Source of the DNA: Nitrosomonadales bacterium | GTDB taxonomy: Bacteria; Pseudomonadota; Gammaproteobacteria; Burkholderiales; Gallionellaceae | Length of the DNA stretch: 61,380 nucleotides | Assembly: GCA_016213335.1 (NCBI GenBank) | Contig: JACRAQ010000065.1 | Coordinates: 1-61,380 of the forward strand | Direction: 5' to 3' | Shown: positions 44,955 to 61,380 of the stretch, piece by piece | How the letters are laid out: every line of letters begins with the position of its first letter | How positions within the stretch are numbered: the stretch's first letter is position 1 | Made by a program: the position numbers and the translations under genes | Notes under the pieces: model-generated | Database searches by the model: none | What the model saw: only the letters and a program-made list of their open reading frames with translations | Told to the model about the DNA's origin: nothing

Positions 44955-46709
44955 ATGCAAGACAAATACAAGTTTCTCATGATAGGCGCTCTTTCGGCGA
45001 GCTGTTTGGTAATTGGAGCTGCCAACGCCGCAGACAAAGAGGTAATTCCGGGGTGGCAGAACGCGGATCACTCACCGAAGGATGCGCCGCTCCATGACCC
45101 GATGATTCTATACTCGTCCGGCGGGGTGGATGGCAAGCTGGCGGTCATTGGTATTCCCAGCTTCAAGACCTATCGTCATATAGACTGCGGCGTTGATACG
45201 CACGAAGTTGTACTTGGCGGTTTACCGGCCGGTAACAAGAACGGGACGCCGGATGGCAAGTATGCCTATCTTAACGACAAGGGCGCCAACACCATCTGCG
45301 AAATCAATTTGCAGACCGGTTTTCTGGAAAGGATTATCGCGCTGCCGTTCCCGTTCGGGGTACACCATATCGCGTTGAGCAAAGACGGCAAGACACTGTT
45401 TGGAACAGGCGAGTACACTGGCAAGATGTCCAAGACCGACATCGCTACTGGTAAAACAGAAGTGATTGATTGGGGCCCCTCTCCCAGTGCTCCGGACTAC
45501 ATAGATGCCGGTAAAGATGGGAAGTACGTTTTCTCGAACAACTATTACCACTCCACAGTGGGCGTGTTTTCCACCAGCCCCTTCAAGCTGGTCAAGGAAA
45601 TTCCGGTAGGCAAGAACCCACACGGCACGGACGTTATTCCGGAGGGTACCATGGTGCTGGTGAGCGACAAACTGTCGGCGACCATGACTGTCATTGACGC
45701 CGAAAAACTGGCGGTAAAGAAGGTCATTCCGACTTGCGCGGGCCCGCTCCACTCGGTAATGGACGTGTACAACAAGGATGGCGGTTCCTACCGGGCCGGA
45801 ATAGACAAGCCGGAGGGGTTGACTTCCAAGTACGCTTACGAGAGCTGCTTCGTGGCGGATGCCAACGTGAAGATAGACCTCAAAAAGCTTGAGGTGGTGG
45901 ACGAGATTCCTACCCACTATCGCACAGGTCATATCTCCATCAGCGCGGACAACTCCTACGTGATGGCGTTGAACAAGTTTTCGACCGGACTGTTCAGCCC
46001 GACCGGCATCATCTATCCGGTTAACTTCGAGATGTGGGATGCGCGCGAAAAGAGCCCGACTTATGGCAAGACCTTGAAAATCATGCCGGTGGACGGTGAG
46101 CCGCATAATGCCAAGAGCCTGATGTCCTACCTGATCAAGGACTGGACCAAGGGTGAAGCGGAAAGAGGCGGGCTGTTAAAAGCTGGTATGACGCAGTTGC
46201 TCGACCCTGCACACAGGGCCAAAGCAAAAAGGTATTTTATTCCCAAGGAAACCACATCACCTGGCATCAAAGTGGTTGATGGCGTCAAGGAAATCCACGT
46301 CAAGGCCTTCAGTTATGGTTACATTCCCCGTCAGATGAGGGTGAACAAGGGCGATAAGGTAAGAATATTTGCCACCAACATTGACAAGGCGGCAGGTATT
46401 ACCAAGAACCCGGATGTCACCATGGGCTTGACCATCTACGGGCCTTACGGCTTGAGAACCAATATGGATCTTCCGCGCGGAGTGACCGCTGTGCATGAGT
46501 TTACCGCTGATATTGCAGGCGAATATGAAATCTTCTGCACCCACTTCTGCGGGCCGCTCCACTTGGAAATGAGAGCGACATTCTTTGTTGACGATCCCAA
46601 GAAGGGGAATTCCAACCTTCTCACCGGCGAATACGCTGAGGCGCAAAAGCTTCCTGGCTTGGTAGAAGAGGGTCAGGTCACGATTGCGGAACAGGTGAAG
46701 GGTCTGTAA
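44955..46709 (+). CDS. Nitrous-oxide-reductase-like periplasmic cuproprotein, divergent
   Basis: This 584-residue protein has a Sec-type signal peptide (cleavage after ANA, about residue 25), a seven-bladed propeller and a C-terminal cupredoxin domain: the NosZ architecture. From memory of NosZ, CuZ-type histidines appear at H83 (DTHEV), H137/138 (GVHHIA), H223 (NPHG), H266 (GPLHS), H326 (TGHIS) and H384 (GEPHN). However, the first ligand pair, HH in NosZ, is H-E here. The CuA motif C528-x3-C532-x3-H536-x2-M539 is intact, but the upstream CuA histidine position (DVTHGF in NosZ) reads DVTMGL (M490). It may not reduce N2O. GGGGAGG precedes the ATG; a cytochrome c follows. Standard nos accessory genes are absent. 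Confidence 0.75.
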   Translation: MQDKYKFLMIGALSASCLVIGAANAADKEVIPGWQNADHSPKDAPLHDPMILYSSGGVDGKLAVIGIPSFKTYRHIDCGVDTHEVVLGGLPAGNKNGTPDGKYAYLNDKGANTICEINLQTGFLERIIALPFPFGVHHIALSKDGKTLFGTGEYTGKMSKTDIATGKTEVIDWGPSPSAPDYIDAGKDGKYVFSNNYYHSTVGVFSTSPFKLVKEIPVGKNPHGTDVIPEGTMVLVSDKLSATMTVIDAEKLAVKKVIPTCAGPLHSVMDVYNKDGGSYRAGIDKPEGLTSKYAYESCFVADANVKIDLKKLEVVDEIPTHYRTGHISISADNSYVMALNKFSTGLFSPTGIIYPVNFEMWDAREKSPTYGKTLKIMPVDGEPHNAKSLMSYLIKDWTKGEAERGGLLKAGMTQLLDPAHRAKAKRYFIPKETTSPGIKVVDGVKEIHVKAFSYGYIPRQMRVNKGDKVRIFATNIDKAAGITKNPDVTMGLTIYGPYGLRTNMDLPRGVTAVHEFTADIAGEYEIFCTHFCGPLHLEMRATFFVDDPKKGNSNLLTGEYAEAQKLPGLVEEGQVTIAEQVKGL

Positions 46710-46788: not shown

Positions 46789-47739
46789 ATGAAGAATGGC
46801 AAATTGAAGGCGTGCCTGATTGCGATTACGGGTCTGGGCATTATGTGGGCGAGCTCGTCGGCGGTGGCCGCAGTGGAAAAACGCTGCACAGCCGGTGGCG
46901 TGAAAGTGGAGTGCCCTACCCAGAGTGATGCAGACGTAAAAAAGGCGGCGGAAGCGTACGGTAAGGAAGCAGAAGATTTCTCGGAAGGCAAAGGAGGCAG
47001 CACCTACGGCATCGCCCCATTTGACTACCTGACGGGGGTAGGCAAGCGCGCCAACTCCGACACCAAGACCTATAAGACCGATAGCGGTTACGGTGAGGCG
47101 AAAGGTTCCTACAAGACAGAACTGTGGGATCGCGTAAAGAAGCCGGGTGTCACCAACGAGGAAACATACAATCAATGGACGAACAACTGGTCCCCCAAGT
47201 TTGATACGACACTGGTTGCGGGCGCTGACCCAACACAAGGGAAGCAATGGTATTACTCTTACTGCATCGCCTGCCACGGGTGGTTGTTGCATGGCGATGG
47301 CCCCAGCGCTGCCGAGTTGAACCCGCGCCCCAGAACCTTGACGAGGGGCGACTACATGCAGAAGAAAACCAACCTTGAGCTGTTTACGATAATCAAGGGC
47401 GGCGGTGAGGCAGTTTCGCTTTCTTCATCCATGCCGGGCTGGGGAAATCTGCTGCAGGATCAGGACATCTGGAACGTGGTCGCTTTTATTCGGGCGATGC
47501 AGGATGTGCCGCCACCGAAGAGCGTAGCCGAATATCTTAATCCCAAGTCCACCTTCAAGCCTAACAAGGGTGACGTGGATGCGCTCAATGCCGCGACCAA
47601 TAAAGATTTCAAGGAAGCGAACGAGCTGATGGAATCGGATATGGCTGGACGCGGTGGCCCGGAACTCGTGGGTGGAGGTTACGTTGAAGGCGGCAGCAGG
47701 AAGAAGCCGAACGAGATTACCCTGAAGGTCGGCAAATAA
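46789..47739 (+). CDS. Exported monohaem cytochrome c paired with the NosZ-like protein
   Basis: This 316-residue protein has a signal peptide (to about residue 27, AVAA) and a long N-terminal region (about 30-150) I cannot assign. A cytochrome c domain follows, with YCIACHGWLLHGDGPSA (haem motif), a Met ligand in SSSMPGWGNLL, and QDIWNVVAFIRAMQD. A charged C-terminal tail follows. Its position 79 bases after the NosZ-like gene, on the same strand, suggests it is the electron donor or partner of that enzyme. The domain resembles cytochrome c of cbb3/nitrite- or nitric-oxide-type chains. AGGGAGG precedes the ATG. Confidence 0.85.
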   Translation: MKNGKLKACLIAITGLGIMWASSSAVAAVEKRCTAGGVKVECPTQSDADVKKAAEAYGKEAEDFSEGKGGSTYGIAPFDYLTGVGKRANSDTKTYKTDSGYGEAKGSYKTELWDRVKKPGVTNEETYNQWTNNWSPKFDTTLVAGADPTQGKQWYYSYCIACHGWLLHGDGPSAAELNPRPRTLTRGDYMQKKTNLELFTIIKGGGEAVSLSSSMPGWGNLLQDQDIWNVVAFIRAMQDVPPPKSVAEYLNPKSTFKPNKGDVDALNAATNKDFKEANELMESDMAGRGGPELVGGGYVEGGSRKKPNEITLKVGK

Positions 47740-47956: not shown

Positions 47957-49729
47957 ATGACATCCTACGCTACTCAGGCAATTGCCAGAGAGATGCCCAC
48001 GCAAAAACTTGATACCCACCTGCACCAGCGCATTTTGCTTGCGCTGGATTCTTCCGATCACGCCAATACCGCCATGGAAATTGCGGCGGATCTTGCCGGG
48101 TTGACAGATGGCGCGGCGATTACCGGCTCCCACGTTTATGCCGCCAAGCTGCACGACATGCGCTTCCGCCAGATGGAGGGCGGGCTGCCGGAACAGTTCA
48201 GGGAGGAGCAGGAACTGGAGCGCCAGCGGGATGTGCACGATGACCTGATCACCCGAGGTTTGTCCATCATTACCGACTCGTATCTTGACCAAGCCGAAGC
48301 CACGTGCGACCGGCTCGGCATCACCTTCAATCGCTGCTCTCTGGAAGGGAAAAATTACCGGGAACTGGCGCGGGAAGCAAACTCGGGCGGCCATGATCTG
48401 CTCGTTATGGGCGCCCTGGGTTTGGGCGCCATACAAGGGAGCAGGCTGGGTACGGTATGCAAGCGGGTTGCCCGGCGTTCGGCGATTGACACCCTTGTCA
48501 TCAAGGAACCCGGACGCCTGCTCAAGGATGGCCCGATTGTCGTGGCAGTGGACGGGTCGGCCAAGTCCTACGGAGGGCTGGTTACCGCACTGGCGCTGGC
48601 CAAGCATTGGCAAGTGCAGGTCAAGGTGGTAGCCGCCTATGATCCTTACTACCACTATGTTGCCTTTAATCGCATAGCCGGCGTCCTGTCGGAGGAAGCC
48701 GGCAAGGTATTCAAGTTCAAGGAGCAGGAAAAGCTGCACGAAGAAATTATTGATTCCGGACTGGCCAGGATATATGACGGCCACCTGGCTGTTGCCCGCT
48801 CCATCGCCAGCGACTTCGGTATTGAAATAGAAACAACGTTGCTGGACGGCAAGCCGCACGATGCCATCGAAAAATTTGTCAAGAAGGTTCAGCCTTCATT
48901 GCTGATCATCGGCAAGCTGGGCATCCATGCAGATGACGAGCTCGATATCGGCGGCAACAGCGAACATTTGCTGCAAAACGTGGATTGCGCCATCTTTCTA
49001 AGCATGCGCGAATACCAGCCGGAAATTGATGTCGTTTCCGAAGTCACCACGTCCTGGACCCGCGAAGCCGAAGCGAAGATGGAGAGAGTGCCGTCTTTTG
49101 TCCGTAACATGGCGCGCATGGCCATCCTGCGCTATGCGCAGGAGCACGGCCACACCGTCATCACCCAGCGCATCGTGGAAGAGGCCACCGCCCTCCTCAT
49201 GCCGCGCCACGCAGAACAAGCCATGGGTGAAATCGTTGCCGCCTACGATGCCGGCGAGCTGAAGCACAAACCGACAGAGGAAGATGCCATGCGCTGGGCG
49301 AGTGAAGCAAGCGCGCTGCTGCGCACCGTCGGCGACCTGTCGGTGCGCGGCAACCTCAGTATGCGCGCCGAGAAAAAAGCCCGCCAGGAAAAAAGCCCCA
49401 CCGTGGAGGCGAGGCATGTCAAGGCATTCCTCGATTCCGGAGAAGCGGAAGCCGAGCCGCAGTCTGCGGACAAAACGCCCGAGCCGCACTGGCACGCTGC
49501 CGCACTGGCACGCTTGATGCGGGTGCCGGAAGGGTTCATGCGCGACAACTGCAAGAGGATGATCGAGGATTACGCGCAGCAGAACGGCCACGCCGAAGTC
49601 ACGCTGGAAGTGGCTGAAGGTGGACTCAAACTGGCCCGCGCAGAAATGGAGGCAAAAATGAAAGACTCCTCCGCTGCACCCAAGCCTGCTTCAGGCGGCT
49701 GCCCGCTTGGCTTCGGAAAAAAACATTAA
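47957..49729 (+). CDS. Tandem universal-stress protein fused to PCP_red-like domains
   Basis: This 590-residue cytoplasmic protein has two USP domains at about 24-185 (ILLALDSSDHANTAMEIA, LLVMGALGLGAIQGSRLGTV) and 192-352 (IVVAVDGSAKSYGG, LLIIGKLGIHADDELDIGGN). Then come two modules resembling the PCP_red domain that ends light-independent protochlorophyllide reductase subunit B: WTREAEAKMERVPSFVRNMA (367-) and WHAAALARLMRVPEGFMRDN (512-). Both are followed by a helix and a HGHT/NGHA turn. The C-terminus is GGCPLGFGKKH; the Cys-Pro pair resembles a haem-regulatory motif (inferred). The next gene carries four more PCP_red-like modules, which implies a shared tetrapyrrole-related task. The combination is rare in my experience. 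Confidence 0.78.
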   Translation: MTSYATQAIAREMPTQKLDTHLHQRILLALDSSDHANTAMEIAADLAGLTDGAAITGSHVYAAKLHDMRFRQMEGGLPEQFREEQELERQRDVHDDLITRGLSIITDSYLDQAEATCDRLGITFNRCSLEGKNYRELAREANSGGHDLLVMGALGLGAIQGSRLGTVCKRVARRSAIDTLVIKEPGRLLKDGPIVVAVDGSAKSYGGLVTALALAKHWQVQVKVVAAYDPYYHYVAFNRIAGVLSEEAGKVFKFKEQEKLHEEIIDSGLARIYDGHLAVARSIASDFGIEIETTLLDGKPHDAIEKFVKKVQPSLLIIGKLGIHADDELDIGGNSEHLLQNVDCAIFLSMREYQPEIDVVSEVTTSWTREAEAKMERVPSFVRNMARMAILRYAQEHGHTVITQRIVEEATALLMPRHAEQAMGEIVAAYDAGELKHKPTEEDAMRWASEASALLRTVGDLSVRGNLSMRAEKKARQEKSPTVEARHVKAFLDSGEAEAEPQSADKTPEPHWHAAALARLMRVPEGFMRDNCKRMIEDYAQQNGHAEVTLEVAEGGLKLARAEMEAKMKDSSAAPKPASGGCPLGFGKKH

Positions 49730-49753
49730 GCGGCGCAGAGCCTGCAATAAAAT

Positions 49754-51847
49754 ATGAGCGCGCCCCGCACGGAAAATCCAGTCGCCAACGACTTGTTTTT
49801 GCTTGCCGTCAACCTGACCAAGCGCTGCAACCTCGCTTGTGCCCATTGCTACATGGATGCGGAAACGCTAAAGCATGGCGGCAAAGACGAACTGGGCACG
49901 GAAGAAGTGCGCGGTTTGCTGGATGAGATTGCGAGCCGCAGTACGGAGACCATGGTCGTGCTGACCGGCGGCGAGCCGCTGATGCGCCCCGATCTGGAAG
50001 AACTGCTGGCCCACGGCACCACTCTTGGACTTTCCATGGTGGTGGGGACCAACGGTGTCGCGCTCAGCGACAAGCGCGTGCGCTCGCTCAAGGCCGCAGG
50101 AGCAATGGGGGCGGGCATCAGTGTTGATTCGCTGGATCCCCAAAAGCACGATGCCTTTCGCGGACTGGAAGGCGCCTGGGAAAAAACCCTGGGGGGTATC
50201 GAGGCGTGCAAGCGCCACGGCCTGCCTTTCCAGATACACTTTTCCGTCACCGAATCCAATGCCGACGAAGTGCCCGCCATGATAGATTTTGCCCGTGCCG
50301 CCGGGGCGCGGGTGCTGAACGTGTTCTTCCTGATCTGTACCGGGCGCGGCGAATCCATGTCGGATATCAGCCCCGTCACCTATGAACGGGTGCTGAACCA
50401 GCTGGTGGAAGCCCAGGAGCGCAGCCAGGATATGCTCATCCGCGCACGCTGCGCGCCCCATTACAAGCGTATCGCCTATCAACGCAACCCGGCTTCCACG
50501 CTCACCCGTGCCGCCGGTTACGAAGGGGGGGGATGCCTGGCCGGCATCCACTATTGCCGCATCACCCCGCAAGGCGGCGTCACGGCCTGCCCCTACATCC
50601 CGGACGAAGGAGGCAATATACGTGCGGATAAATTCTGGGACATCTGGGATCAATCCCCCGCCTTTCAGTCGTTGCGCAATCCGGAGTTGCAGGGAAAGTG
50701 TGGCAATTGCGAGTTCCAGAAACTGTGCGGCGGCTGCCGGGCGCGGCCGCTTGCCATGGGCGGCAGCCTGATGGACACCGATCCCTGGTGCATTCACATG
50801 CCCGATGGGTCAGCCGTCATACAACCGATGGCCGAGCAGCCCAAAAAACTCATCTGGAACAAGGAAGCGGAAAAGCGCTTGTCGCGCGTACCTTCATTCC
50901 TGCGCAAAATGGTCAAGAGCCGTGCGGAAAGTTATGTGCAGGAACTGGGCATGCACGTGGTTACGGAAGAACACCTGGCCACCCTGGCTGCAAAGCGATT
51001 CGGAAGCGGCGGCCCGCCCCGCCCGGAGGGACTACCCGAGAGTGCGGCTCAACGCACCGGACAGGCAGCTGCCGAGGGGCTGCCGTGGAGCGAAGAAGCC
51101 CGCGCACGCCTGGCATCCATGCCATCCTTTTTGCAGGAAGGCGTGCGCGCCGTCGCGGAAGACGTTGCCCGCTCGGAAGGCCGTCTGGAAGTGAACATCA
51201 AGCTGCTGGACCGGCTGGAAGCGGAAAATCAGCCGGGCCGCAGCATGCAGTGGAATGAGGAAGCGGATCGCCTGCTGGCGGAGTTCCTTGCAGACAAATC
51301 CCCCCAGGCGCTGATGTTCATAGCGCCGGCGCTGGATAGCGCCGCTGAACAATTTGCCAAAGCCCGGCGCGCTGCAACGGTGGAACGGGCCGACGCCGAA
51401 GAGGCCGTCGCGCGGCTGACCGGCGGGGTGGAATGGGACGAAGATGCGCTGGCGCGCGTGCTGTCGGCGCCCGATTTCAACCGGGCGGGCATCAAGAAGG
51501 CTGCCGAATTCAATGCGCGCAGGGAAGGCCTGAAGCGCATCACCTCCGCAGATTTGACGCGCTTCCGCAACAAAGCCATGATGCGCGCGGTGCAGCGCAT
51601 GAAGGGTTTCGGCATGACGGAATTGAGCTTTGACGCCTACGAGATCGCCCGCGAGCGCGTCCCGCGCCTGAAGGATAACCCCGAAGCCGACAAGCGCTTC
51701 GACACTATCCGCAATTTTGTTGCGGCGCGGGAAAACCCGGGCGACCTGTTGGGGCGCGATTTGCTCGATCAAATGAAGGCACAGCTCGAGGCCAACAAGC
51801 CGGGCGGTACGACCGCTCACCAGACAAAAGAAAAACCGGCGGTGTAG
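49754..51847 (+). CDS. AhbD/NirJ-like radical SAM protein with four PCP_red-like modules
   Basis: This 697-residue enzyme has the radical-SAM cluster KRCNLACAHCYMDAE (Cys 25, 29, 32), TGGEPLMRPDLEELL, and a SPASM-type C-terminal cluster region with Cys 261, 268, 279, 316, 319, 325, 328 and 346. The closing CGGCRARPLAMGGS then DTDPWC is diagnostic of the haem-modifying NirJ/AhbC/AhbD group (haem d1 or alternative haem synthesis). After about residue 360 come four modules starting W-[NSD]-E-[ED]-A at W368, W445, W500 and W561, resembling PCP_red; NirJ and AhbD normally stop near 400 residues. Upstream and downstream neighbours also point to tetrapyrrole chemistry. The substrate is unknown; a haem-like macrocycle is likely. 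Confidence 0.82.
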   Translation: MSAPRTENPVANDLFLLAVNLTKRCNLACAHCYMDAETLKHGGKDELGTEEVRGLLDEIASRSTETMVVLTGGEPLMRPDLEELLAHGTTLGLSMVVGTNGVALSDKRVRSLKAAGAMGAGISVDSLDPQKHDAFRGLEGAWEKTLGGIEACKRHGLPFQIHFSVTESNADEVPAMIDFARAAGARVLNVFFLICTGRGESMSDISPVTYERVLNQLVEAQERSQDMLIRARCAPHYKRIAYQRNPASTLTRAAGYEGGGCLAGIHYCRITPQGGVTACPYIPDEGGNIRADKFWDIWDQSPAFQSLRNPELQGKCGNCEFQKLCGGCRARPLAMGGSLMDTDPWCIHMPDGSAVIQPMAEQPKKLIWNKEAEKRLSRVPSFLRKMVKSRAESYVQELGMHVVTEEHLATLAAKRFGSGGPPRPEGLPESAAQRTGQAAAEGLPWSEEARARLASMPSFLQEGVRAVAEDVARSEGRLEVNIKLLDRLEAENQPGRSMQWNEEADRLLAEFLADKSPQALMFIAPALDSAAEQFAKARRAATVERADAEEAVARLTGGVEWDEDALARVLSAPDFNRAGIKKAAEFNARREGLKRITSADLTRFRNKAMMRAVQRMKGFGMTELSFDAYEIARERVPRLKDNPEADKRFDTIRNFVAARENPGDLLGRDLLDQMKAQLEANKPGGTTAHQTKEKPAV

Positions 51848-51851
51848 AGAA

Positions 51852-53297
51852 ATGGAACAGCGGGACGTACTGATCATCGGTGGCGGAATCACGGGGCTCG
51901 CATCTGCCTGGTGGCTGGCGCGCGGCGGGCTGTCGGTCGAGGTCTGGGAAGCAAACGAGCGAGCAGGCGGCAAGATCATGAGCACCCGGCAGGATGGCTA
52001 TCTCACGGAGCGTGCCGCGTCCATGGTGCTGAACTTCCGCCCCGAAGTTGCGGAGCTGGTGCGCGAAGCCGGGCTGGAACCGGCAAAGACCAGCCGCCTG
52101 CCTGCCGCCGAAGCGCGCCGTTACCTGCTGCACCAAAGCAGCCTGAAGGCGTTGCCCATGCGCATGGGCGCGATGATGGCCTCGCCGCTATGGAGCTTGC
52201 GCGGAAAGATGCGCCTGCTGGCGGAACCCTTCATTTTTTCCAGCGGGCGGCCCGACGAAACAGTCAGCGAATTTATCACCCGCCGCCTCGGCCGCGAGGT
52301 TCTGGAAAAGGCCATCGAGCCGTTTATTGCCGGCACGCTGGCGGCAGACCCGGACAGGACTTCCGCCGCCGCCGCGTTACCGCGCCTCACCGCGCTGGAG
52401 CAGCGCTACGGCAGCTTGGCTGCCGGGGTAATGGTGAACCGCATCCTGCGCCGCCGCACGGCCTGCACCACCGATACCTTTTCTTTCCGTTGCGGTATGG
52501 GTACGCTGGTGGAGAGCCTTGCGAGAACGCCCGGCATTACCGTGCGCACCGGCTATTCTGCCGACGAACTGGCCCGCGAGCCTGATGGCGGCTGGCGGGC
52601 CGCGGCAACGACGCCGCAAGGGCGGCAAGTTCTGTCCGCGCGCCACGTGATCGTGGCGACTCCCGCGCCTGCTGCTGCCGCACTGGTGGCGCATGTGGAT
52701 GGCGAGCTGGCGGAGCTATTGCGCGGGATCAGTTACGCTGCCGTAACCGTGGTACATGCGGGCTTGGCCCGCGATGCAGTGGGGCACCCGCTGGACGGTA
52801 CCGGATTCCTGGCGCCACGGGGAGAAAGTGCGATATTGACAGGCAACCTGTGGATGAGCACCTTGTTTCCGGATCGCGCGCCCCCGAGGAAAGTCCTGCT
52901 TACTTCGTACCTTGGCGGGGTGCGTGCCCCTCAAGTAGCGGATTGGAGCGACGAGCGCCTCGCGGACGAAACCATCGGGGCATTGCGCCCGTTGCTGGAT
53001 ATAACAGCCGATCCGGAGATGATACGCATAGACCGGCACAGCGAAGCCTTGCCGGTTTACCACGGCGCCTATCAGGCGCGCATGCAGGCCATTACCGCCC
53101 GCTTGAAACAGGCTTCCGGGCTACATCTTGAGGCGAACTACCGGGGCGGGGTGTCGGTGCGGGACCGCCTCGCCCGCAGCCATGCCGTGGCGAACCAGAT
53201 TCTGGCGGCGCAGCAATGGCCATCCGTCGAGCGGAAGCGGTGCGTAGTTTCCGGGAATTCAGACGGGGTAGTTGCGCAACCCGGTGTTATCTATTGA
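51852..53297 (+). CDS. Protoporphyrinogen/coproporphyrinogen oxidase-like flavoprotein
   Basis: This 481-residue FAD enzyme has the dinucleotide loop IIGGGITGLASAWWLARGG, the conserved VEVWEANERAGGKIMSTRQD, then ITRRLGREVLEKAIEPFIAGT and AALPRLTALEQRYGSLAAGV. This pattern matches the oxygen-dependent HemG/Bacillus HemY-type oxidase that aromatises (copro/proto)porphyrinogen. AMINE-oxidase-like C-terminal motif LEANYRGGVSVRDRLARS is present. The start is four bases after the radical SAM stop, so they are co-translated. Placed with the PCP_red-fused proteins, it suggests a dedicated tetrapyrrole module rather than general haem synthesis, whose genes are elsewhere (hemC-D). Confidence 0.85.
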   Translation: MEQRDVLIIGGGITGLASAWWLARGGLSVEVWEANERAGGKIMSTRQDGYLTERAASMVLNFRPEVAELVREAGLEPAKTSRLPAAEARRYLLHQSSLKALPMRMGAMMASPLWSLRGKMRLLAEPFIFSSGRPDETVSEFITRRLGREVLEKAIEPFIAGTLAADPDRTSAAAALPRLTALEQRYGSLAAGVMVNRILRRRTACTTDTFSFRCGMGTLVESLARTPGITVRTGYSADELAREPDGGWRAAATTPQGRQVLSARHVIVATPAPAAAALVAHVDGELAELLRGISYAAVTVVHAGLARDAVGHPLDGTGFLAPRGESAILTGNLWMSTLFPDRAPPRKVLLTSYLGGVRAPQVADWSDERLADETIGALRPLLDITADPEMIRIDRHSEALPVYHGAYQARMQAITARLKQASGLHLEANYRGGVSVRDRLARSHAVANQILAAQQWPSVERKRCVVSGNSDGVVAQPGVIY

Positions 53298-53812: not shown

Positions 53813-55750
53813 ATGGGTCGCCGTTTCAAAGAAGAAATTCAATATCTTCCGCAAGCAATCCATTGGGCAGCGGCTCAAGAAGTTAAATTGCTGCAGCGTG
53901 CTTTATTGAATGCATCATCACGGCCTCTTTTTGCGATTGGATCCGGAGGCTCTTTCACAGCTGCGACTTTTGCTGCCTCGTGCAACGAGAAGCGGTTTGG
54001 CCAGTTATCCCGAGCCGTTACCCCCCTAGAATACAAAGAAACTGGCGGCGTGGTTCGAGATGCAGCCGTACTAATGCTTTCTGCTGAAGGCAAAAACAAA
54101 GACATCCTCTCGGCAGCCTGGAGCACACTTGTTTATGAACAAGTCGCACTCGCGCTAACTCTGAAGCAATACACGCCACTAGCCTCATTTGCAGCCTCCT
54201 CCGGGTCTATGAGTGTTTTAGCATATGACATGCCGTGGAACAAAGATGGCTACCTCGCTACGAACAGCCTCGTTGCCATGATTATTCTTCTGGCAAAAGC
54301 ATATTGCCGAGACCCGGATAAAGATTTCGTATCGCTGCTAAGCCATATATCCTTGGACTGGTTAGCCCATCGACGTAAAGTAATCTCCGAAACCGTCCGT
54401 GAGTACGAGGTCGGAACACAAGTCTTGGTGTTATTCGGCGGCACCAGCCGCCCGACAGCGATAGACGTAGAATCAAAATTTGCCGAAGCTGCGCTAGGAA
54501 CGTGCCAACTCGCTGACTATCGACAGTTTGCTCACGGCAGGCATTTGCAGCTTAGCTACGCGAAAAAGGCCATCGTTATCGCGTTCGTCAGCAGTGCAGA
54601 CCAAGCGCTTGCAGAAGCTACGCTTGCGTTAATACCCGATCATATTCGCAAGCTTACCTTGGATGTCCCCACGAATGATGCCGTTGCGGTGGTGCAGGGG
54701 GTTATTGACGCCATACTCATAATCGACGTAGTGGCTGACATCCTGGGTATCGATCCTGGCCAGCCTGAAGTGCCGGACTACTGTAGGCTCATTCACCAAC
54801 TCGACCCCAATGCCTTCCTGAAGGAGCCGCAGTCATCTGTGCCGGTGCCTGTCAGACGTAAGTTGAAGCGGGCGGCGGCCGATGAGGCAGCAATAACTCG
54901 GTTTTCCACTGCATATGGGGAGTTTTCAAAAAAGCTGACTTGCGCCCACATTAAGGCCTTGGTGTGCGACTTTGACGGAACATTCTGCGAAACCGACAGG
55001 CGATGGGACGGACTGGACGACTTACTTTCAGATGAAATCGAACGCATTGCTAGCTATGGGGTTCCCATTGTTTTTGCAACTGGCCGAGGCGACTCCTTGA
55101 TGGAGGACCTCCGGAAAAAACTTTCGCCAGAAAATTGGCAACAAGTCTACATTGGATACTATAGCGGCTCGTTAATGGCGAGGCTAGACGAAGACCCAGC
55201 GTTTCCTGACGCAGATCCACGGTTCCAGGAGCTATTGTCATGGCTCGAAACAATGGGTGTAAACGCGCTGGTAGAAGCAAAGCCTAAGCTTGATTGTGGA
55301 CAGCTTGGACTTCGCTGTGGGAACCAAGCGTCTCGCCATGAGGCGGTTACCGCCATCAAGTATTGGATTCGGCATAAACAACTTTGGGGCTGGCGAGTCT
55401 ATTGCTCTGGCCACTCCATCGATGTTCTCTCAGATTGGGCTGGAAAGCGTAAGGTTCTGGATTTTGTGGTGAATAAATTCAAGCTCGATGCCGACTCAGA
55501 GATCCTCCGCCTGGGAGACTCTGGGGACTTTGACGGAAATGACTTCGAGCTACTGCGTGATGGGCTTGGGCTCAGTGTTAACTTCGTTTCATCCGACCCG
55601 GCAAGTTGCTGGAACCTTCTCCCGCTCGACCGTCGTGGTGTTGTTGGTACGAAGTATTATCTGTCTCATTTGAGGCAGGCTAATAACAGCGGATGGTTGT
55701 CCATGGCGACGCTTGGCGCTAACAACCAAGGAATTGGAGCCTGCGCGTGA
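53813..55750 (+). CDS. Double-SIS isomerase-like / HAD phosphatase fusion
   Basis: This 645-residue protein has two sugar-isomerase (SIS) modules: LFAIGSGGSFTAATFAAS (about 38-56) and a second with VLFGGTSRPTAIDVESKFAE then HGRHLQL (about 205-247). The second resembles the isomerase half of GlmS (glucosamine-6-phosphate synthase) without the glutaminase. A HAD domain follows (about 375-620), with catalytic VCDFDGTFCE (386-), FATGRGDS (421-) and GDSGDFDGND (568-577), close to Cof/sucrose-phosphatase-type HADs. Fusion suggests isomerisation and dephosphorylation of one sugar phosphate. It overlaps the next gene by four bases. The substrate is unknown. The ATG's ribosome-binding site (AGGAAAG) is about 14 bases away, further than usual. 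Confidence 0.75.
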   Translation: MGRRFKEEIQYLPQAIHWAAAQEVKLLQRALLNASSRPLFAIGSGGSFTAATFAASCNEKRFGQLSRAVTPLEYKETGGVVRDAAVLMLSAEGKNKDILSAAWSTLVYEQVALALTLKQYTPLASFAASSGSMSVLAYDMPWNKDGYLATNSLVAMIILLAKAYCRDPDKDFVSLLSHISLDWLAHRRKVISETVREYEVGTQVLVLFGGTSRPTAIDVESKFAEAALGTCQLADYRQFAHGRHLQLSYAKKAIVIAFVSSADQALAEATLALIPDHIRKLTLDVPTNDAVAVVQGVIDAILIIDVVADILGIDPGQPEVPDYCRLIHQLDPNAFLKEPQSSVPVPVRRKLKRAAADEAAITRFSTAYGEFSKKLTCAHIKALVCDFDGTFCETDRRWDGLDDLLSDEIERIASYGVPIVFATGRGDSLMEDLRKKLSPENWQQVYIGYYSGSLMARLDEDPAFPDADPRFQELLSWLETMGVNALVEAKPKLDCGQLGLRCGNQASRHEAVTAIKYWIRHKQLWGWRVYCSGHSIDVLSDWAGKRKVLDFVVNKFKLDADSEILRLGDSGDFDGNDFELLRDGLGLSVNFVSSDPASCWNLLPLDRRGVVGTKYYLSHLRQANNSGWLSMATLGANNQGIGACA

Positions 55751-56889
55751 GGCGAGAACTAGCGATCAGTCTCATTTCAGATCTCATGGAATGGGACGAC
55801 AGCGAGGCGACTACAGAATACGCCTGGCTCAAGCTTATGGTTGATTACAAATTTGACCGCTACCAAGGATATGGCCCTGGGATTCACTTCTACGTTCGCT
55901 TGATCAGCTGGCTTGCTCAATTCAAAGACGTTGCTGCGCGGCGTACAGCTTACCGCTACTTGCGCAAACACTTGGTGTTTATTGGCCAGCCGGAGTTGTA
56001 CCAACTGATCAAGCTCGCAATGCCGGAAATGGAGAAAGATGCTAGGCGAATCGTCGCAAATCGTCACGGCATTGCTTATTACGAGACGTGGGCAAATAAA
56101 AAAGCTCAGAAAGACCTCAGGCTCATGTCATTGCGTACTTTGTACGTGGGCCTTAGCGACGGTGCTCGGATTGATGTTTTCAGGCGGTACAACGAAGGCT
56201 TGCTCACAAACGAACAGGTAATAGCTTCAAGTGAAATATCTGATGACAAGTGGCAAAGCTTGGGTAATAAGCTTGCCGCTCGGCTCGAGCAGAGCGGATT
56301 TCCGGACGCGGAGCAGAAGTTCGAGCGAGTTTGCTTGGTCGATGACTTCACCGGCTCGGGGACCACTTTGATCCGCTACGATGATGCCAAAACTACTTGG
56401 GACGGCAAAATCTTCAAATTCTGCAGCCAAGCCGAAAATCACGGAAAAATGAGGCCGGAACTTGCTGACCAATGCCACATTCAAGTTCACCACTACTTGG
56501 CATCAACTAAGGCAAGGGACGCGGTCGAGGATGCTCTGCCAAAGCTTCAAGAGACGATGCCTCGATTTAGCTGCAAAGCATCTTATTCTTGGGTATTCAG
56601 CGCCGAACCCGATGTTGTCATGGGGCCTGCCTCGGATGCAGAGTTATTGGCCTGGATCAATGGCCACTACGACCCAAGCATCCAGACTTCGCATAACTGT
56701 GTAGACGGCAAGTCTATTGCTTTGGGATACAAGCAATGTGGCTTGCCTATCGTGCTCGAGCACAATACCCCAAATAACTCGATCGCTCTGATATGGGCGG
56801 AGTCTAGGCCAGATAGCAAGAGCCCGCATATCATGCGTCCCTTATTTCCTCGAACTGATCGACATATCGACAATGGACAATCCGTTTAA
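55747..56889 (+). CDS. Phosphoribosyltransferase-like protein (PRTase-CE type)
   Basis: This 380-residue protein contains a type I phosphoribosyltransferase PRPP loop, VCLVDDFTGSGTTLIRYD (195-211). It has an unusually long helical N-terminus (about 1-130) and a C-terminal part with LPIVLEHNTPNNSIALIWAE and MRPLFPRTDR. This matches my recollection of the conflict-associated PRTase-CE family described by Aravind and colleagues, not the standard purine or pyrimidine salvage enzymes, which are about 200 residues. It probably transfers ribose-phosphate to or from a base or a nucleic acid. GTG start overlaps the SIS-HAD stop. The next gene, a P-loop ATPase, overlaps it by 17 bases. Confidence 0.7.
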   Translation: MRRELAISLISDLMEWDDSEATTEYAWLKLMVDYKFDRYQGYGPGIHFYVRLISWLAQFKDVAARRTAYRYLRKHLVFIGQPELYQLIKLAMPEMEKDARRIVANRHGIAYYETWANKKAQKDLRLMSLRTLYVGLSDGARIDVFRRYNEGLLTNEQVIASSEISDDKWQSLGNKLAARLEQSGFPDAEQKFERVCLVDDFTGSGTTLIRYDDAKTTWDGKIFKFCSQAENHGKMRPELADQCHIQVHHYLASTKARDAVEDALPKLQETMPRFSCKASYSWVFSAEPDVVMGPASDAELLAWINGHYDPSIQTSHNCVDGKSIALGYKQCGLPIVLEHNTPNNSIALIWAESRPDSKSPHIMRPLFPRTDRHIDNGQSV

Positions 56890-58810
56890 AAAGCGTGCAA
56901 CAGAGTTCATTGAAGAACCGCTCGCACTTCTCTCCCTGCTGAGTGCGGAGCCAATTCGGGCATTTTTCGACAAGGGAGCTGCGACGTGCTTTGACCGCCT
57001 TACATTGGTTATTGGCACACCAGGAAGTGGGAAAACAACGATTGCTAGACTGCTGGAGCTTGACACGTTGGTCGAGGTTATACGATTAGCCAACAACAAG
57101 GATAAAGATGGCCGGCAGCTTGCGATGTCGCTTTCCGAATACAATATTTTAGTAAATAACCTGCCGGCTTATCTGGCACACCGAGTTCCGTGCGTCTCGA
57201 ATTTACGCAGCATCTGGGAGCTTCCGTATTCAGAGCGCACAAAGAGTGGCTTGCTGCGTACGTTAATCCAAGTCAAAGCCTGCTTGGGGTGGTTGCGCAA
57301 GCTTGAACGACTAAAAGTCGATTTGCGGGCTGTGAAGATGAACTTTAAGCCGGGCTCCGAGGCAAATGAAACATTACTTAAGGCAGCTGACACTTTGGTG
57401 CTTAGAGAACATGCACGGCAGGCCGAAGAAGACGTTCTGCGAATTATTACCTCGTTGGTCCCTCCAAAGGAGAGTGGCCTGGAAAATTCCGCTGCAAACT
57501 TGCCATATATGCTCTTCGATTCTATCGAATCAATCACCGTTCCATCAATTCCTAATGTTGCGGATGAGTCTTTCACGCTTCGCCCCATGGTTATTCTTGA
57601 TGACGCACATGAACTTCACAGTAGACAGTTTGAAGATGTTCAGAACTGGCTATTAAACAGGGAGTGGTCCACGTCTCGGTGGATTATTACCCGTGTTGAT
57701 GCCATAGGTACAACCGACCTCCGTAAAGCAATTAGCGATATAGAGGACGAAGTAATTGCCCCAGGAAGCACGACCGGGCGGGACCGAACAATTAAATTGC
57801 TGCAGGGCGAGAGGCGGGATCGTGCCCAGTTCAGGAGGGTCGCACGAGACTTAAGTCGTCGATACTTTAGCCAGATGCCCACCTTCCAAAGGCGCGGCAT
57901 TGATAAATTAGAAGACCGCCTATCCGGCAATAACATAGGTATTTCCAAGGCAGATATCCAGATTTTGGAGGAGGAGAACGTTGCGCTAGTTCAAGAGTGT
58001 CGCTTTTCCAAAGAAGCGGTAGAAGTACTAGCTAGGTTGGTGCCGGAGAATATTTCAAAGGAAGAAAAGCTGGTGGTTCTCCATATTCTGCTCCAGCGGG
58101 AGAGGCGAAAGACACCACAAGTTGATCTTTTCGGCGATGAGGGGCAGGCTGAAGGCACTGGCAACGAAGAAGAGGAAAGTCAGGAGGCTATCGACGAGGG
58201 GGCCCGGAAGACCGTTAAGCCGGCAGTAATAGTTGGGGCTGAATTGCAGCTTACGCACCGGTTCAAGCGACCATTTTACTTTTCGTTTGATAGGCTTGCT
58301 GACGCGAGTGGGGACAACATTGAAATTTTTATCAGTTTGGCTGGTGCTTTAGTGGATGAATTGGAGACTCAAGTCCTTCGGAATAAAAAGCCAGAACTTG
58401 ATGCGCGGCAACAGCATACTATTTTAACGCGCAGAGCCGAAGAAATCATGGGCCAATGGGATTTCCCTCATTGTGAGTCCGTGAAAAAGCTGGTGTCCTT
58501 CATCGGTAACCGGTGTATTGCTCGAACCATGGAACGTAACGCACCACTCTCGGATGGTGCCAACGCGTTTGGCATTCCTCAAACTGAGATGGACCAGCTA
58601 GAAGCTTCTGCTCCAGAGCTCGCACAGGTTATTCACTACGCGATTGCCTACAATGCAATTACGTTGAGAGAAAATTATCTTTGCAAAAAACGAAGTTGGT
58701 GCCTGTTTTTGCTTGGTGGAATTCCCATTGTTGCCAACCGGCTAACGCTAGGGCGGGGTGGCTTCTGTGAAGGACACCTTAGGGACTTGAAGGGGAGCAT
58801 TGCCCTGTGA
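56873..58810 (+). CDS. P-loop ATPase, ORC/CDC6- or STAND-like
   Basis: This 645-residue protein has Walker A VIGTPGSGKTTIARLLEL (46-63) and Walker B MVILDDAHELHS (239-250). A sensor-1-like SRWIITRVDA (268-277) follows. Long helical segments occupy the rest (about 300-640), including a Glu-rich stretch (about 410-440). It resembles AAA+ ATPases of the ORC/CDC6 type linked with PRTase-CE proteins in conflict systems (recollection). It probably senses a trigger and controls the neighbouring enzymes. It overlaps the PRTase and the following gene (GTGA), so all are translated together. Confidence 0.72.
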   Translation: MDNPFKKRATEFIEEPLALLSLLSAEPIRAFFDKGAATCFDRLTLVIGTPGSGKTTIARLLELDTLVEVIRLANNKDKDGRQLAMSLSEYNILVNNLPAYLAHRVPCVSNLRSIWELPYSERTKSGLLRTLIQVKACLGWLRKLERLKVDLRAVKMNFKPGSEANETLLKAADTLVLREHARQAEEDVLRIITSLVPPKESGLENSAANLPYMLFDSIESITVPSIPNVADESFTLRPMVILDDAHELHSRQFEDVQNWLLNREWSTSRWIITRVDAIGTTDLRKAISDIEDEVIAPGSTTGRDRTIKLLQGERRDRAQFRRVARDLSRRYFSQMPTFQRRGIDKLEDRLSGNNIGISKADIQILEEENVALVQECRFSKEAVEVLARLVPENISKEEKLVVLHILLQRERRKTPQVDLFGDEGQAEGTGNEEEESQEAIDEGARKTVKPAVIVGAELQLTHRFKRPFYFSFDRLADASGDNIEIFISLAGALVDELETQVLRNKKPELDARQQHTILTRRAEEIMGQWDFPHCESVKKLVSFIGNRCIARTMERNAPLSDGANAFGIPQTEMDQLEASAPELAQVIHYAIAYNAITLRENYLCKKRSWCLFLLGGIPIVANRLTLGRGGFCEGHLRDLKGSIAL

Positions 58811-59889
58811 GTCAGTTTTCCGTCGATACATGTATTGCGCACAGTGGTGCTGACGCATTCGAATTTATTGGGTATCTGAGTGCATCCAAAGCAGTACTGT
58901 TCATTGGTGCAGTTGGGTTAGAACAGGCGTCAATGTATTGCACAACTAGATTTGCTAGCGGGAAAAACGTTTCCTTCAAGTTCTTGGTGGAAAACCGCCC
59001 CTCCGTACCTGCTGTGCTGATTCAGCTTGGGCGGGAGCACGAAACCTATTTGAGAAGCAAAACGTCGAATACAGCTGAATTCATCTCTTTTGAGGTCATT
59101 TCCACGGACGGCGCAACGACGGGTGGCCGCAACGTGATAAACAAAGCTCAGCCGTGGTTCATCGAGAAGAACTATGTCGATGTTGTGATCGACGTTACTG
59201 GGATGTCGAGGGGCGTATTCTTTCCCTTGGTGAAGCTTGCTTGCGAGATGGGGCAAAAATATGGATTCAACGTGCACGTCCTAGCTGCGGCAAACGATAA
59301 TCCGTCTATCAAAATCTGCTCCGAAGCCAGCGACCGCGCCGAATGGATGCATGGTTTCCAAGGGGACATTGAATTCGACCGGAATAGTGATGACCTTAAG
59401 CTATGGGTTCCGCAACTCACACAGAATGCACTTAATCAGGCCGACCTCATGCAAAGGCATATCCAGCCTACACCTGCTGAGGTATGCCCCATTATTCCCT
59501 TTCCGTCTCGCGCTCCCCGTCAGGGGGACGATCTGATGAGCGAGTACGCGGACTTGCTCTTCAACCGGTGGGAGGGCAACCTGCTCAACGTCATGTACGC
59601 TCATGAGTCGGACCCTATCGACGTCTATCGGTCAATCTACCGTATGCATGCGAACCGTGAATTGGTGTTCAACGGCGCAGCTGGTGGGAAAAAGGCCACT
59701 ACTGTCCTTTCCCCAGCCGGATGGCGCCTAGGTAGCGTTGGCATGCTACTTGCCGCAATTGATCTGTCTCTGCCAGTTTTGTACGTTGAGACTGTCGGGT
59801 ATAATCTTGATAGTCCGGTACCGCCATCAGTGACGGTGGCGGATCCTACTTGTCTTTGGCACATCTGGATGGTTGGGCATGTTTATTAG
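58807..59889 (+). CDS. Unrecognised two-domain alpha/beta protein of the island
   Basis: This 360-residue protein is not one I can name. It has two Rossmann-like halves. The first (about 25-165) has strand ASKAVLFIGAVGLE, FKFLVENRPS, and VDVVIDVTGMSRGVFFPLVKL. The second (about 235-345) has LVFNGAAGGKKATTVLSPAG, then LGSVGMLLAAIDLSLPVLYVET. The Gly-rich loop followed by a helix and a strand recalls the T-G-G-T-K loop of CARF nucleotide-sensing domains, but the resemblance is loose. It could bind or make a nucleotide. It overlaps both neighbours, so it is an obligate part of the gene set. Confidence 0.5.
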   Translation: MSQFSVDTCIAHSGADAFEFIGYLSASKAVLFIGAVGLEQASMYCTTRFASGKNVSFKFLVENRPSVPAVLIQLGREHETYLRSKTSNTAEFISFEVISTDGATTGGRNVINKAQPWFIEKNYVDVVIDVTGMSRGVFFPLVKLACEMGQKYGFNVHVLAAANDNPSIKICSEASDRAEWMHGFQGDIEFDRNSDDLKLWVPQLTQNALNQADLMQRHIQPTPAEVCPIIPFPSRAPRQGDDLMSEYADLLFNRWEGNLLNVMYAHESDPIDVYRSIYRMHANRELVFNGAAGGKKATTVLSPAGWRLGSVGMLLAAIDLSLPVLYVETVGYNLDSPVPPSVTVADPTCLWHIWMVGHVY

Positions 59890-60934
59890 AATGAAGCCCG
59901 CACCGCGGAATAGCACTCGTTCATTTGGGCCTCGAGCTGTCGGGTCGGGGCTTATCGCGCTCGATGTAATCCTCGATGACTCGTCGTCTCTTCTCTCCTC
60001 AGCAGTCGGTGGTTCCGCTGGGAACGTGTTGGCTGCGCTGGCCTATCTTGGTTGGCGCAGCGTGCCAGTGTGTGAGCTTGGTAAGGATTCCGCAGGGCAT
60101 CGGGTTCGAGAAGAGTTTCAAAAGCTCAAAGCTGATCTTCGCTTCGTGGTTGAGAGTGATCACGTTTGTACTCCGGTCGTTTATCAGATGCCTGTGAATG
60201 CTCCTGAAACACACAAGTTCAGTTTTCGCTGCCCGCATTGCGGGGAACGTCGTGGATACTTGGCGCCGTCTGACGCTCAATTAGGTGAGCAAGTTTACAA
60301 GGGTGTTCCTACGCCCAGTGTCTATTACTTCGACCGAGTAACTAAAGTCTCACTGGCTTTGGCGGAAAAATACCGTGCTAGAGGAGTCCTGGTGGTGTTT
60401 GAACCTTCTGACGTTCCGACCAACAAAGAAGACTTTCAGCGTGCGATATCTGCTACACACGTTCTCAAATATGCCGATAACCGCTTCGCAGACTTTCCGT
60501 ACGATGTAAGCAACATTTCCCTAGAAATAAAGACAATGGGATCGAAAGGTCTACGGTTCCGCATACCCTCATTGCTGGAGGATTGGGCCTCATTACCCGC
60601 TATCCGCGTTCCTGTTGTGGTTGACACGGCTGGCGCTGGCGATTGGTGCACGGCCGGTCTGTTAGCGTCGCTTTTTGGTGCTGGAACACGCTGGCAATTG
60701 TCCTATAGTGCGGCATATCAGGGGCTACGGTATGGGCAGTCTCTTGCTGCTCTAAACTGCATGTTTGCTGGCGCTAGAGGCATAACGGAGAGCTGGTCAG
60801 CTCGCAAAGTCAAGCGACTAGCGGCTGAGTTGATGGAAAAGTCGGCCACGACGCAACAACCGACTCTCCAGCGACGTAGGAAAGTCAAGACTAAAGTTAA
60901 GCCACTGCTATGCTGCGACCCGCTCGAGGTCTAG
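59879..60934 (+). CDS. PfkB-family (ribokinase-like) sugar or nucleoside kinase
   Basis: This 351-residue protein has GLIALDVILDD, the N-terminal PfkB signature VGGSAGNVLAALAYLGW, and the C-terminal signature VVDTAGAGDWCTAGLLASLF, which holds the catalytic Asp. A short insertion, KFSFRCPHCGERRGYLAPSD, has a CxxC pair that could bind zinc if partnered, unusual for ribokinases. The ATG at 59879 overlaps the previous stop; a second ATG at 59891 is possible. It would phosphorylate a sugar or nucleoside, fitting the SIS-HAD isomerase/phosphatase and the PRTase. The basic C-terminal tail (RRRKVKTKVK) is odd. The last 27 bases overlap the convergent NADAR gene. Confidence 0.78.
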   Translation: MFIRMKPAPRNSTRSFGPRAVGSGLIALDVILDDSSSLLSSAVGGSAGNVLAALAYLGWRSVPVCELGKDSAGHRVREEFQKLKADLRFVVESDHVCTPVVYQMPVNAPETHKFSFRCPHCGERRGYLAPSDAQLGEQVYKGVPTPSVYYFDRVTKVSLALAEKYRARGVLVVFEPSDVPTNKEDFQRAISATHVLKYADNRFADFPYDVSNISLEIKTMGSKGLRFRIPSLLEDWASLPAIRVPVVVDTAGAGDWCTAGLLASLFGAGTRWQLSYSAAYQGLRYGQSLAALNCMFAGARGITESWSARKVKRLAAELMEKSATTQQPTLQRRRKVKTKVKPLLCCDPLEV

Positions 60935-61380
60935 CTTTTTCCGGGAGGTTTTCCTTTTAGCTTGAGACGTCTTTGTTTTGTTTTGTGCAGGGCGTAGTTC
61001 CTCGAGCAATTCTTCGCGCAATTCCATTAACAGCTGCCCTAGCATGTTTTTGCCAATGCCGTTCACTTCGCCCCAAAGGCGATTAACTGAGTTATCTACG
61101 GTGGCTTTCTCGACCAGCCTTGCATTACCGGTTGATAGCAACAGTTCCTTCAAGTCTTCGTGTTGAGTAAATTTTGCGTGGAGCACTCGCTTCATGCGGT
61201 CAAATTTATCTTTTGACCAGTTAGGTGCCACATCCCATACATAGAGGCCGTGAGCTGCCATCGCCAGTAGCGAAGGCGATGGGGCCGCCATCAACCATTC
61301 GCGGACACTTTCCTTGCGAGCCTTGCCGGCCTGGTAGGCGTGTTCAGAAGTCGGGTATTCAATTCCTTCAAAAAGGATCG
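60908..61380 (-). CDS. NADAR-domain protein, 5' truncated by window edge
   Basis: Read leftward, the open frame continues past the right edge of the window, giving at least 157 residues. It shows the NADAR signatures FEGIEYPTSEHAYQAGKARK, LHAKFTQHEDLKELLLST and GNARLVEKATVDN, then RLWGEVNGIGKNMLGQLLME. NADAR proteins (YbiA type) are N-glycosidases on riboflavin intermediates or ADP-ribose-like linkages. The C-terminus is a basic Lys/Arg tail. It is convergent with the PfkB gene, overlapping by 27 bases. The start codon is outside the window, so the N-terminal domain is unknown. It may be an antagonist of, or a substrate handler for, the operon opposite. Confidence 0.85.
   Translation of the reverse strand, partial: ILFEGIEYPTSEHAYQAGKARKESVREWLMAAPSPSLLAMAAHGLYVWDVAPNWSKDKFDRMKRVLHAKFTQHEDLKELLLSTGNARLVEKATVDNSVNRLWGEVNGIGKNMLGQLLMELREELLEELRPAQNKTKTSQAKRKTSRKKLDLERVAA

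Follow-up and report, generated by a model that had tools for sequence, protein, structure and literature searches.

A predicted clade III lactonase-type nitrous-oxide reductase with family-wide changes at both copper sites in a Gallionella-like betaproteobacterium

We analysed a window of 61,380 nucleotides, a contig (C36) that belongs to a 2.54-Mb, 144-contig Nitrosomonadales genome, 92.7% complete. It contains an intact reading frame of 584 codons at 44955–46709 on the plus strand, whose product we call L-NosZ. Downstream lie genes for a c-type cytochrome, for a Usp and a radical SAM protein that each carry PCP_red domains, and for a protoporphyrinogen oxidase (Table 1). Of 30 loci, 28 had a homologue of the cytochrome c close to L-NosZ, and the two loci without one stop within 0.1 kb downstream of L-NosZ (locus L052 repeats L029). 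This cytochrome is likely the electron carrier for L-NosZ. The PCP_red domain originates from the B subunit of the light-independent protochlorophyllide reductase. Here it occurs in tandem in both the Usp and the radical SAM proteins (47957–51847), beside the protoporphyrinogen oxidase. This arrangement may serve a dedicated haem modification, possibly that of CydA-like or c-type cytochromes. The operon is adjoined by an island (53813–61378) encoding a HAD-like protein, a PRTase-CE, an ORC-CDC6-like ATPase, a CARF6 protein (PADLOC, 400 bits) and a PfkB kinase, together with a NADAR protein on the other strand that is cut by the contig end. From its gene content, the island may be a conflict or defence system with a CARF protein as its sensor.

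Table 1. Features of the L-NosZ locus, in positions of the window; residue numbers are those of L-NosZ.
Feature	Position	Strand	Basis or remark
L-NosZ ORF	44955..46709	+	584 aa; signal peptide, seven-bladed beta-propeller (CuZ domain), cupredoxin (CuA-like domain)
Apparent Sec-type signal peptide, residues 1-25	44955..45029	+	Cleavage between AANA and ADKE, read by eye
D81-T82-H83-E84, equivalent to NosZ DxHH (P. stutzeri H129-H130)	45195..45206	+	MAFFT localpair, hhalign; H83/E84 invariant
H137-H138	45363..45368	+	H137 equivalent to CuZ His of blade III (P. stutzeri H178); H138 candidate replacement ligand
M490, at NosZ CuA His position (P. stutzeri H583)	46422..46424	+	MAFFT localpair, hhalign
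C528-T-H-F-C532-G-P-L-H536-L-E-M539, remaining CuA ligands	46536..46571	+	MAFFT localpair, hhalign
Mono-haem c-type cytochrome, 316 aa, one CxxCH at 159	46789..47739	+	Pfam Cytochrome_CBB3
Usp and two PCP_red domains, 590 aa	47957..49729	+	Pfam; homologue in 17/30 loci
Radical SAM/SPASM protein resembling AhbD/NirJ2, three PCP_red domains	49754..51847	+	15/30 loci
Protoporphyrinogen oxidase (HemG/HemY type)	51852..53297	+	TIGR00562 243.9 bits, cut-off 97.85; 16/30 loci

The L-NosZ protein matched NF052460, the curated NCBIfam model "clade III lactonase-type nitrous-oxide reductase", over the whole profile (residues 48–547) with 763.8 bits for a cut-off of 700, and this cut-off was also exceeded in the whole-genome search. 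Its scores against the clade II model (TIGR04246, 151.9 bits) and the clade I model (TIGR04244, 107.3 bits) were both below the threshold of 625. Pfam gave YNCE/Lactonase-type propeller repeats and a nos_propeller repeat, plus a cupredoxin match slightly under its cut-off. In a phmmer search of PDB sequences, an N2O reductase was matched with an E value of 1.7e-19, and N2O reductases were the best solved relatives. This third family of enzymes converting the greenhouse gas N2O to nitrogen was first described in 2025 (He et al. 2025, Nature 646:152–160, as cited in PMC13033781) and is cited as catalysing N2O reduction. The names clade III and L-NosZ are those used in PMC13122619, and PMC13274427 cites earlier work in which acetylene inhibited clade III NosZ. 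Residues 1–30 of L-NosZ, inspected by eye, lack a twin arginine, and an AxA site is present. Hence the export signal looks to be of the Sec type, in line with the first-pass annotation, which had read a Sec rather than a Tat signal.

We then placed the protein in a phylogeny of NosZ-like proteins (IQ-TREE, LG+C20). The 35 clade III rows formed a single clade of their own, separate from the other two; each of the three groups fell on one side of a branch, with supports of 100/100 (L-NosZ), 99/97 (clade I) and 100/99 (clade II). By L-NosZ, the nearest relatives were Gallionella/Gallionellales and Nitrosomonadales MAGs. Two contigs grouped inside this Gallionella-like branch though filed elsewhere, L013 under Candidatus Moraniibacteriota and L014 under Thiothrix, and these are probably binning errors. 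Few genomes carried the family: of 398 sampled Pseudomonadota genomes, 3 exceeded the cut-off, the contig's own genome included, and in the phylum of locus L026 a match was found in 7 of 395 sampled genomes, 5 of them over the cut-off.

The copper-site residues were compared in an alignment of 35 L-NosZ rows (33 distinct) and 13 other NosZ, 5 of them from clade II and 8 from clade I or haloarchaea. The L-NosZ rows span Pseudomonadota and the phylum of L026 (Myxococcota according to the tree tool) and share 60–91% identity with the contig protein, a value that varies by method. Alignment with clades I and II did not restore the canonical ligands. Both MAFFT localpair and a profile–profile comparison by hhalign (100% probability, E 2e-45, residues 48–546) placed the DTHE motif of L-NosZ, D-x-H83-E84, on the DxHHP (DLHH) of NosZ, and DVTM490GL on DLTHGF. 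Instead of the seven-histidine CuZ set with its His-His pair, L-NosZ thus has H83-E84 and keeps six histidines (H83, H137, H223, H266, H326 and H384); instead of the canonical CuA site with two His, two Cys and one Met, it has M490 for the first His and retains C528, C532, H536 and M539. The H83-E84 pair, the count of six histidines, M490 and the four remaining CuA residues had been given in the first-pass annotation and were borne out by the alignment. In the localpair alignment, H83-E84 and M490 were found in every one of the 35 L-NosZ rows, and the His-His pair and the CuA His in 13/13 other NosZ.

Invariant across the L-NosZ rows were also H137, H223, H266, H326, H384, C528, C532, H536 and M539, as well as K341, E382 and F531. 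The latter three are the equivalents of P. stutzeri K454, E492 and F621, through which a connection between CuA and CuZ was proposed (PMC11573801), and all three are kept. At the position that provides a backbone carbonyl to CuA, L-NosZ has His (Thr in two rows), and Trp, Tyr or Glu occurs in the remaining NosZ. In solved NosZ structures, this residue supplies only its main chain. Judged from these residues, the copper centres of L-NosZ differ from those of canonical NosZ in a manner fixed across clade III. The altered copper centre suggested earlier is therefore supported at the level of sequence, and a NosZ-like protein with changed ligands it is, but the oddity is not private to this contig, the same ligands being present throughout the clade III rows. 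L-NosZ is a member of the described clade III family, and its unusual ligands are a family trait rather than the mark of a divergent or decaying NosZ.

Clade III L-NosZ (NF052460) has the same propeller and cupredoxin layout, and nothing sets the contig protein apart from the members examined. With the Sec-dependent clade II enzymes, L-NosZ shares the fold, Sec export, the six CuZ histidines, the four CuA ligands and the K/E/F conduit; it differs from them by DxHE in place of DxHH, by Met in place of His in CuA, and by a genome without NosD and NosL. With the TAT-dependent clade I enzymes of P. stutzeri and P. denitrificans, it shares the fold and most ligands, but its signal is Sec rather than Tat and it carries His or Thr at the CuA carbonyl position where clade I has Trp.

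Two AlphaFold2 models were built, the first with a pLDDT of 60.6 and the second, which included more distant rows, with a better 71.4. The second model matched solved N2O reductases with Z scores of 39–41.5 over model range 46–548, the large rmsd in many rows reflecting domain placement; the first, weaker model gave Z 27–28.5. Lactonases matched at Z near 35, and an archaeal YVTN propeller (1l0q) tied with the N2O reductases at Z 39.6, over the propeller only. The model shows the NosZ-type arrangement of propeller and cupredoxin, with a cupredoxin of mixed, partly low confidence.

The model was also used to look for a seventh CuZ ligand. In solved NosZ, every blade except IV gives one His, with two consecutive ones in blade II, and in P. 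stutzeri single replacement of six of the seven CuZ histidines abolished metalation (PMC11573801). The His-to-Glu change in L-NosZ must therefore be compensated, a point that speaks against the reading as an N2O reductase. In the second model, the inner strand of blade II begins with H83-E84 and that of blade III with H137-H138. All clade III rows have H138, where the other NosZ aligned have Gly. From this invariance and this place on the inner strand, a topological argument can be made that either E84 coordinates through its carboxylate, or the second His of the pair has been relocated from blade II to blade III as H138. Two other histidines were considered as replacements. H75 is invariant, but its strand in the model, 72–77, is an outer one of blade I. 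H199 is located in blade IV, between strands, and this blade has no CuZ ligand in solved NosZ. Both are unlikely. As for a nearby substitute for the missing CuA His, the nearest was H448, but it is Gln or Arg in some members.

Across loci, the genes around L-NosZ fell into recurrent sets. The beta- and zetaproteobacterial loci are organised as here, with the cytochrome c followed by the Usp-PCP_red, the radical SAM protein with PCP_red and the protoporphyrinogen oxidase. In several gammaproteobacterial loci, and also in L031 and L026, L-NosZ is followed by a cytochrome b6, a 230-aa protein, two Vgb-like propellers and the same cytochrome c, and further by a small CxxCH protein and an ABC transporter (GldA, GldF, an ABC_transp_aux protein and a DUF4340 protein). 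A third set, upstream of L-NosZ in many loci, comprises cytochromes c, a CydA-like protein and a cytochrome c-EB_dh protein. The genome studied here carries these modules on other contigs: the cytochrome b6, a 229-aa protein, two Vgb-like propellers and a small cytochrome on C47, the GldA/GldF-type ABC set on C26, and the CydA-like set on C86. No match to NosD or NosL was found in the whole 92.7%-complete genome, so that this part of the first-pass claim of absent nosRDFYL genes holds, nor was a second or canonical NosZ found there. We infer that the ABC set and the Vgb-like propellers replace NosDFY in its role for L-NosZ, and the cytochrome b6 and cytochromes would carry electrons to it.

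The CydA-like set with its c-type cytochromes, present on C86 (locus L064, 6678–13316) and in L026 (1991–8569), is conserved and recurs near L-NosZ in distant lineages. In these two sets the CydA-like protein has 620 aa, and no CydB was noticed next to it; one cytochrome c carries a fused EB_dh domain (DMSO reductase type II haem b). Contig C3 of the genome studied here (locus L050, 2951–12707) holds an unusual haem-copper oxidase cluster. It encodes proteins of 565 and 468 aa with weak COX1 matches, a CoxB-like subunit and two cytochrome b proteins, and it is unassigned among the known oxidase and NOR families.

Could the altered residues mean that the protein is something else than an N2O reductase? 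The first-pass annotation had raised a different substrate, and a NosZ-fold copper enzyme acting on another N-oxide, or catalysing a reaction like that of thiocyanate dehydrogenase, would fit the invariant changes at both copper sites, the genome without NosD and NosL, and the linked CydA-like, EB_dh and haem-handling genes, which are atypical of nos operons; the family name would then extend beyond its tested members. Thiocyanate dehydrogenase (8q9x) does have the copper-binding beta-propeller fold in common with L-NosZ (Z 30.6). However, it aligned over the propeller only, with a Z well under that of NosZ, and it was absent among the PDB phmmer matches at E 0.001. Moreover, L-NosZ exceeds the curated N2O reductase cut-off and keeps the cupredoxin and K341, E382 and F531. 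The idea of another substrate is consequently not supported, and we regard it as unlikely.

The other readings question the ligands themselves. An initial, plainer MAFFT alignment had a gap at DxHH, as expected if canonical ligands were present but shifted, and the match of H83-E84 rests on localpair and hhalign. These two methods agree, however, and no other His lies near M490, which makes an alignment artefact very improbable. Hardly any weight, and slightly less still, goes to a degenerate or copper-poor paralogue that does not reduce N2O and acts as a copper store or structural protein. It would account for two metal ligands lost relative to clades I and II, but the ligand columns are strictly invariant down to 60–70% identity in a second phylum, the frame is open in all rows and the operon is conserved.

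The favoured substrate is N2O because L-NosZ belongs to a curated family of N2O reductases and keeps the residues of the CuA-CuZ conduit. The gene product is thus quite probably a periplasmic, Sec-exported clade III L-NosZ that reduces N2O in a Gallionella-like betaproteobacterium. Family membership, fold, invariant residues and the conserved gene neighbourhood have direct support in the data; from these we infer the substrate, metal loading, electron path and maturation. In the mechanism that we propose, the seven-bladed propeller would hold a CuZ-type Cu-S cluster through the six canonical His and E84 or H138, and the C-terminal cupredoxin a CuA-type site made of C528, C532, H536, M539 and M490. 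Electrons would probably come from the downstream c-type cytochrome, fed by a quinol-oxidising cytochrome b6/c module on another contig, and would reduce N2O to N2 in the periplasm. The first CuA His acts as a gate in P. stutzeri NosZ. A tentative wider proposal, to which we give somewhat less than an even chance, is that all clade III enzymes have Met for this gating His, a Glu or a relocated His as the seventh CuZ ligand, and, instead of NosRDFYL, a conserved set of their own with cytochrome b6/c, Vgb-like propellers, a GldA/F-type ABC transporter and radical-SAM/PCP_red haem genes.

A 2023 pangenome survey of 103 Gallionellaceae genomes found no nosZ and concluded that they are unable to denitrify to N2 (PMC10734462). 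A clade III gene with an apparently complete accessory set in Gallionella MAGs reopens the question of N2O reduction in this family, as L-NosZ is carried by iron-oxidising bacteria earlier reported without this function. In addition, the family-wide loss of the gating CuA His makes the proposed His-gating mechanism testable by comparison.
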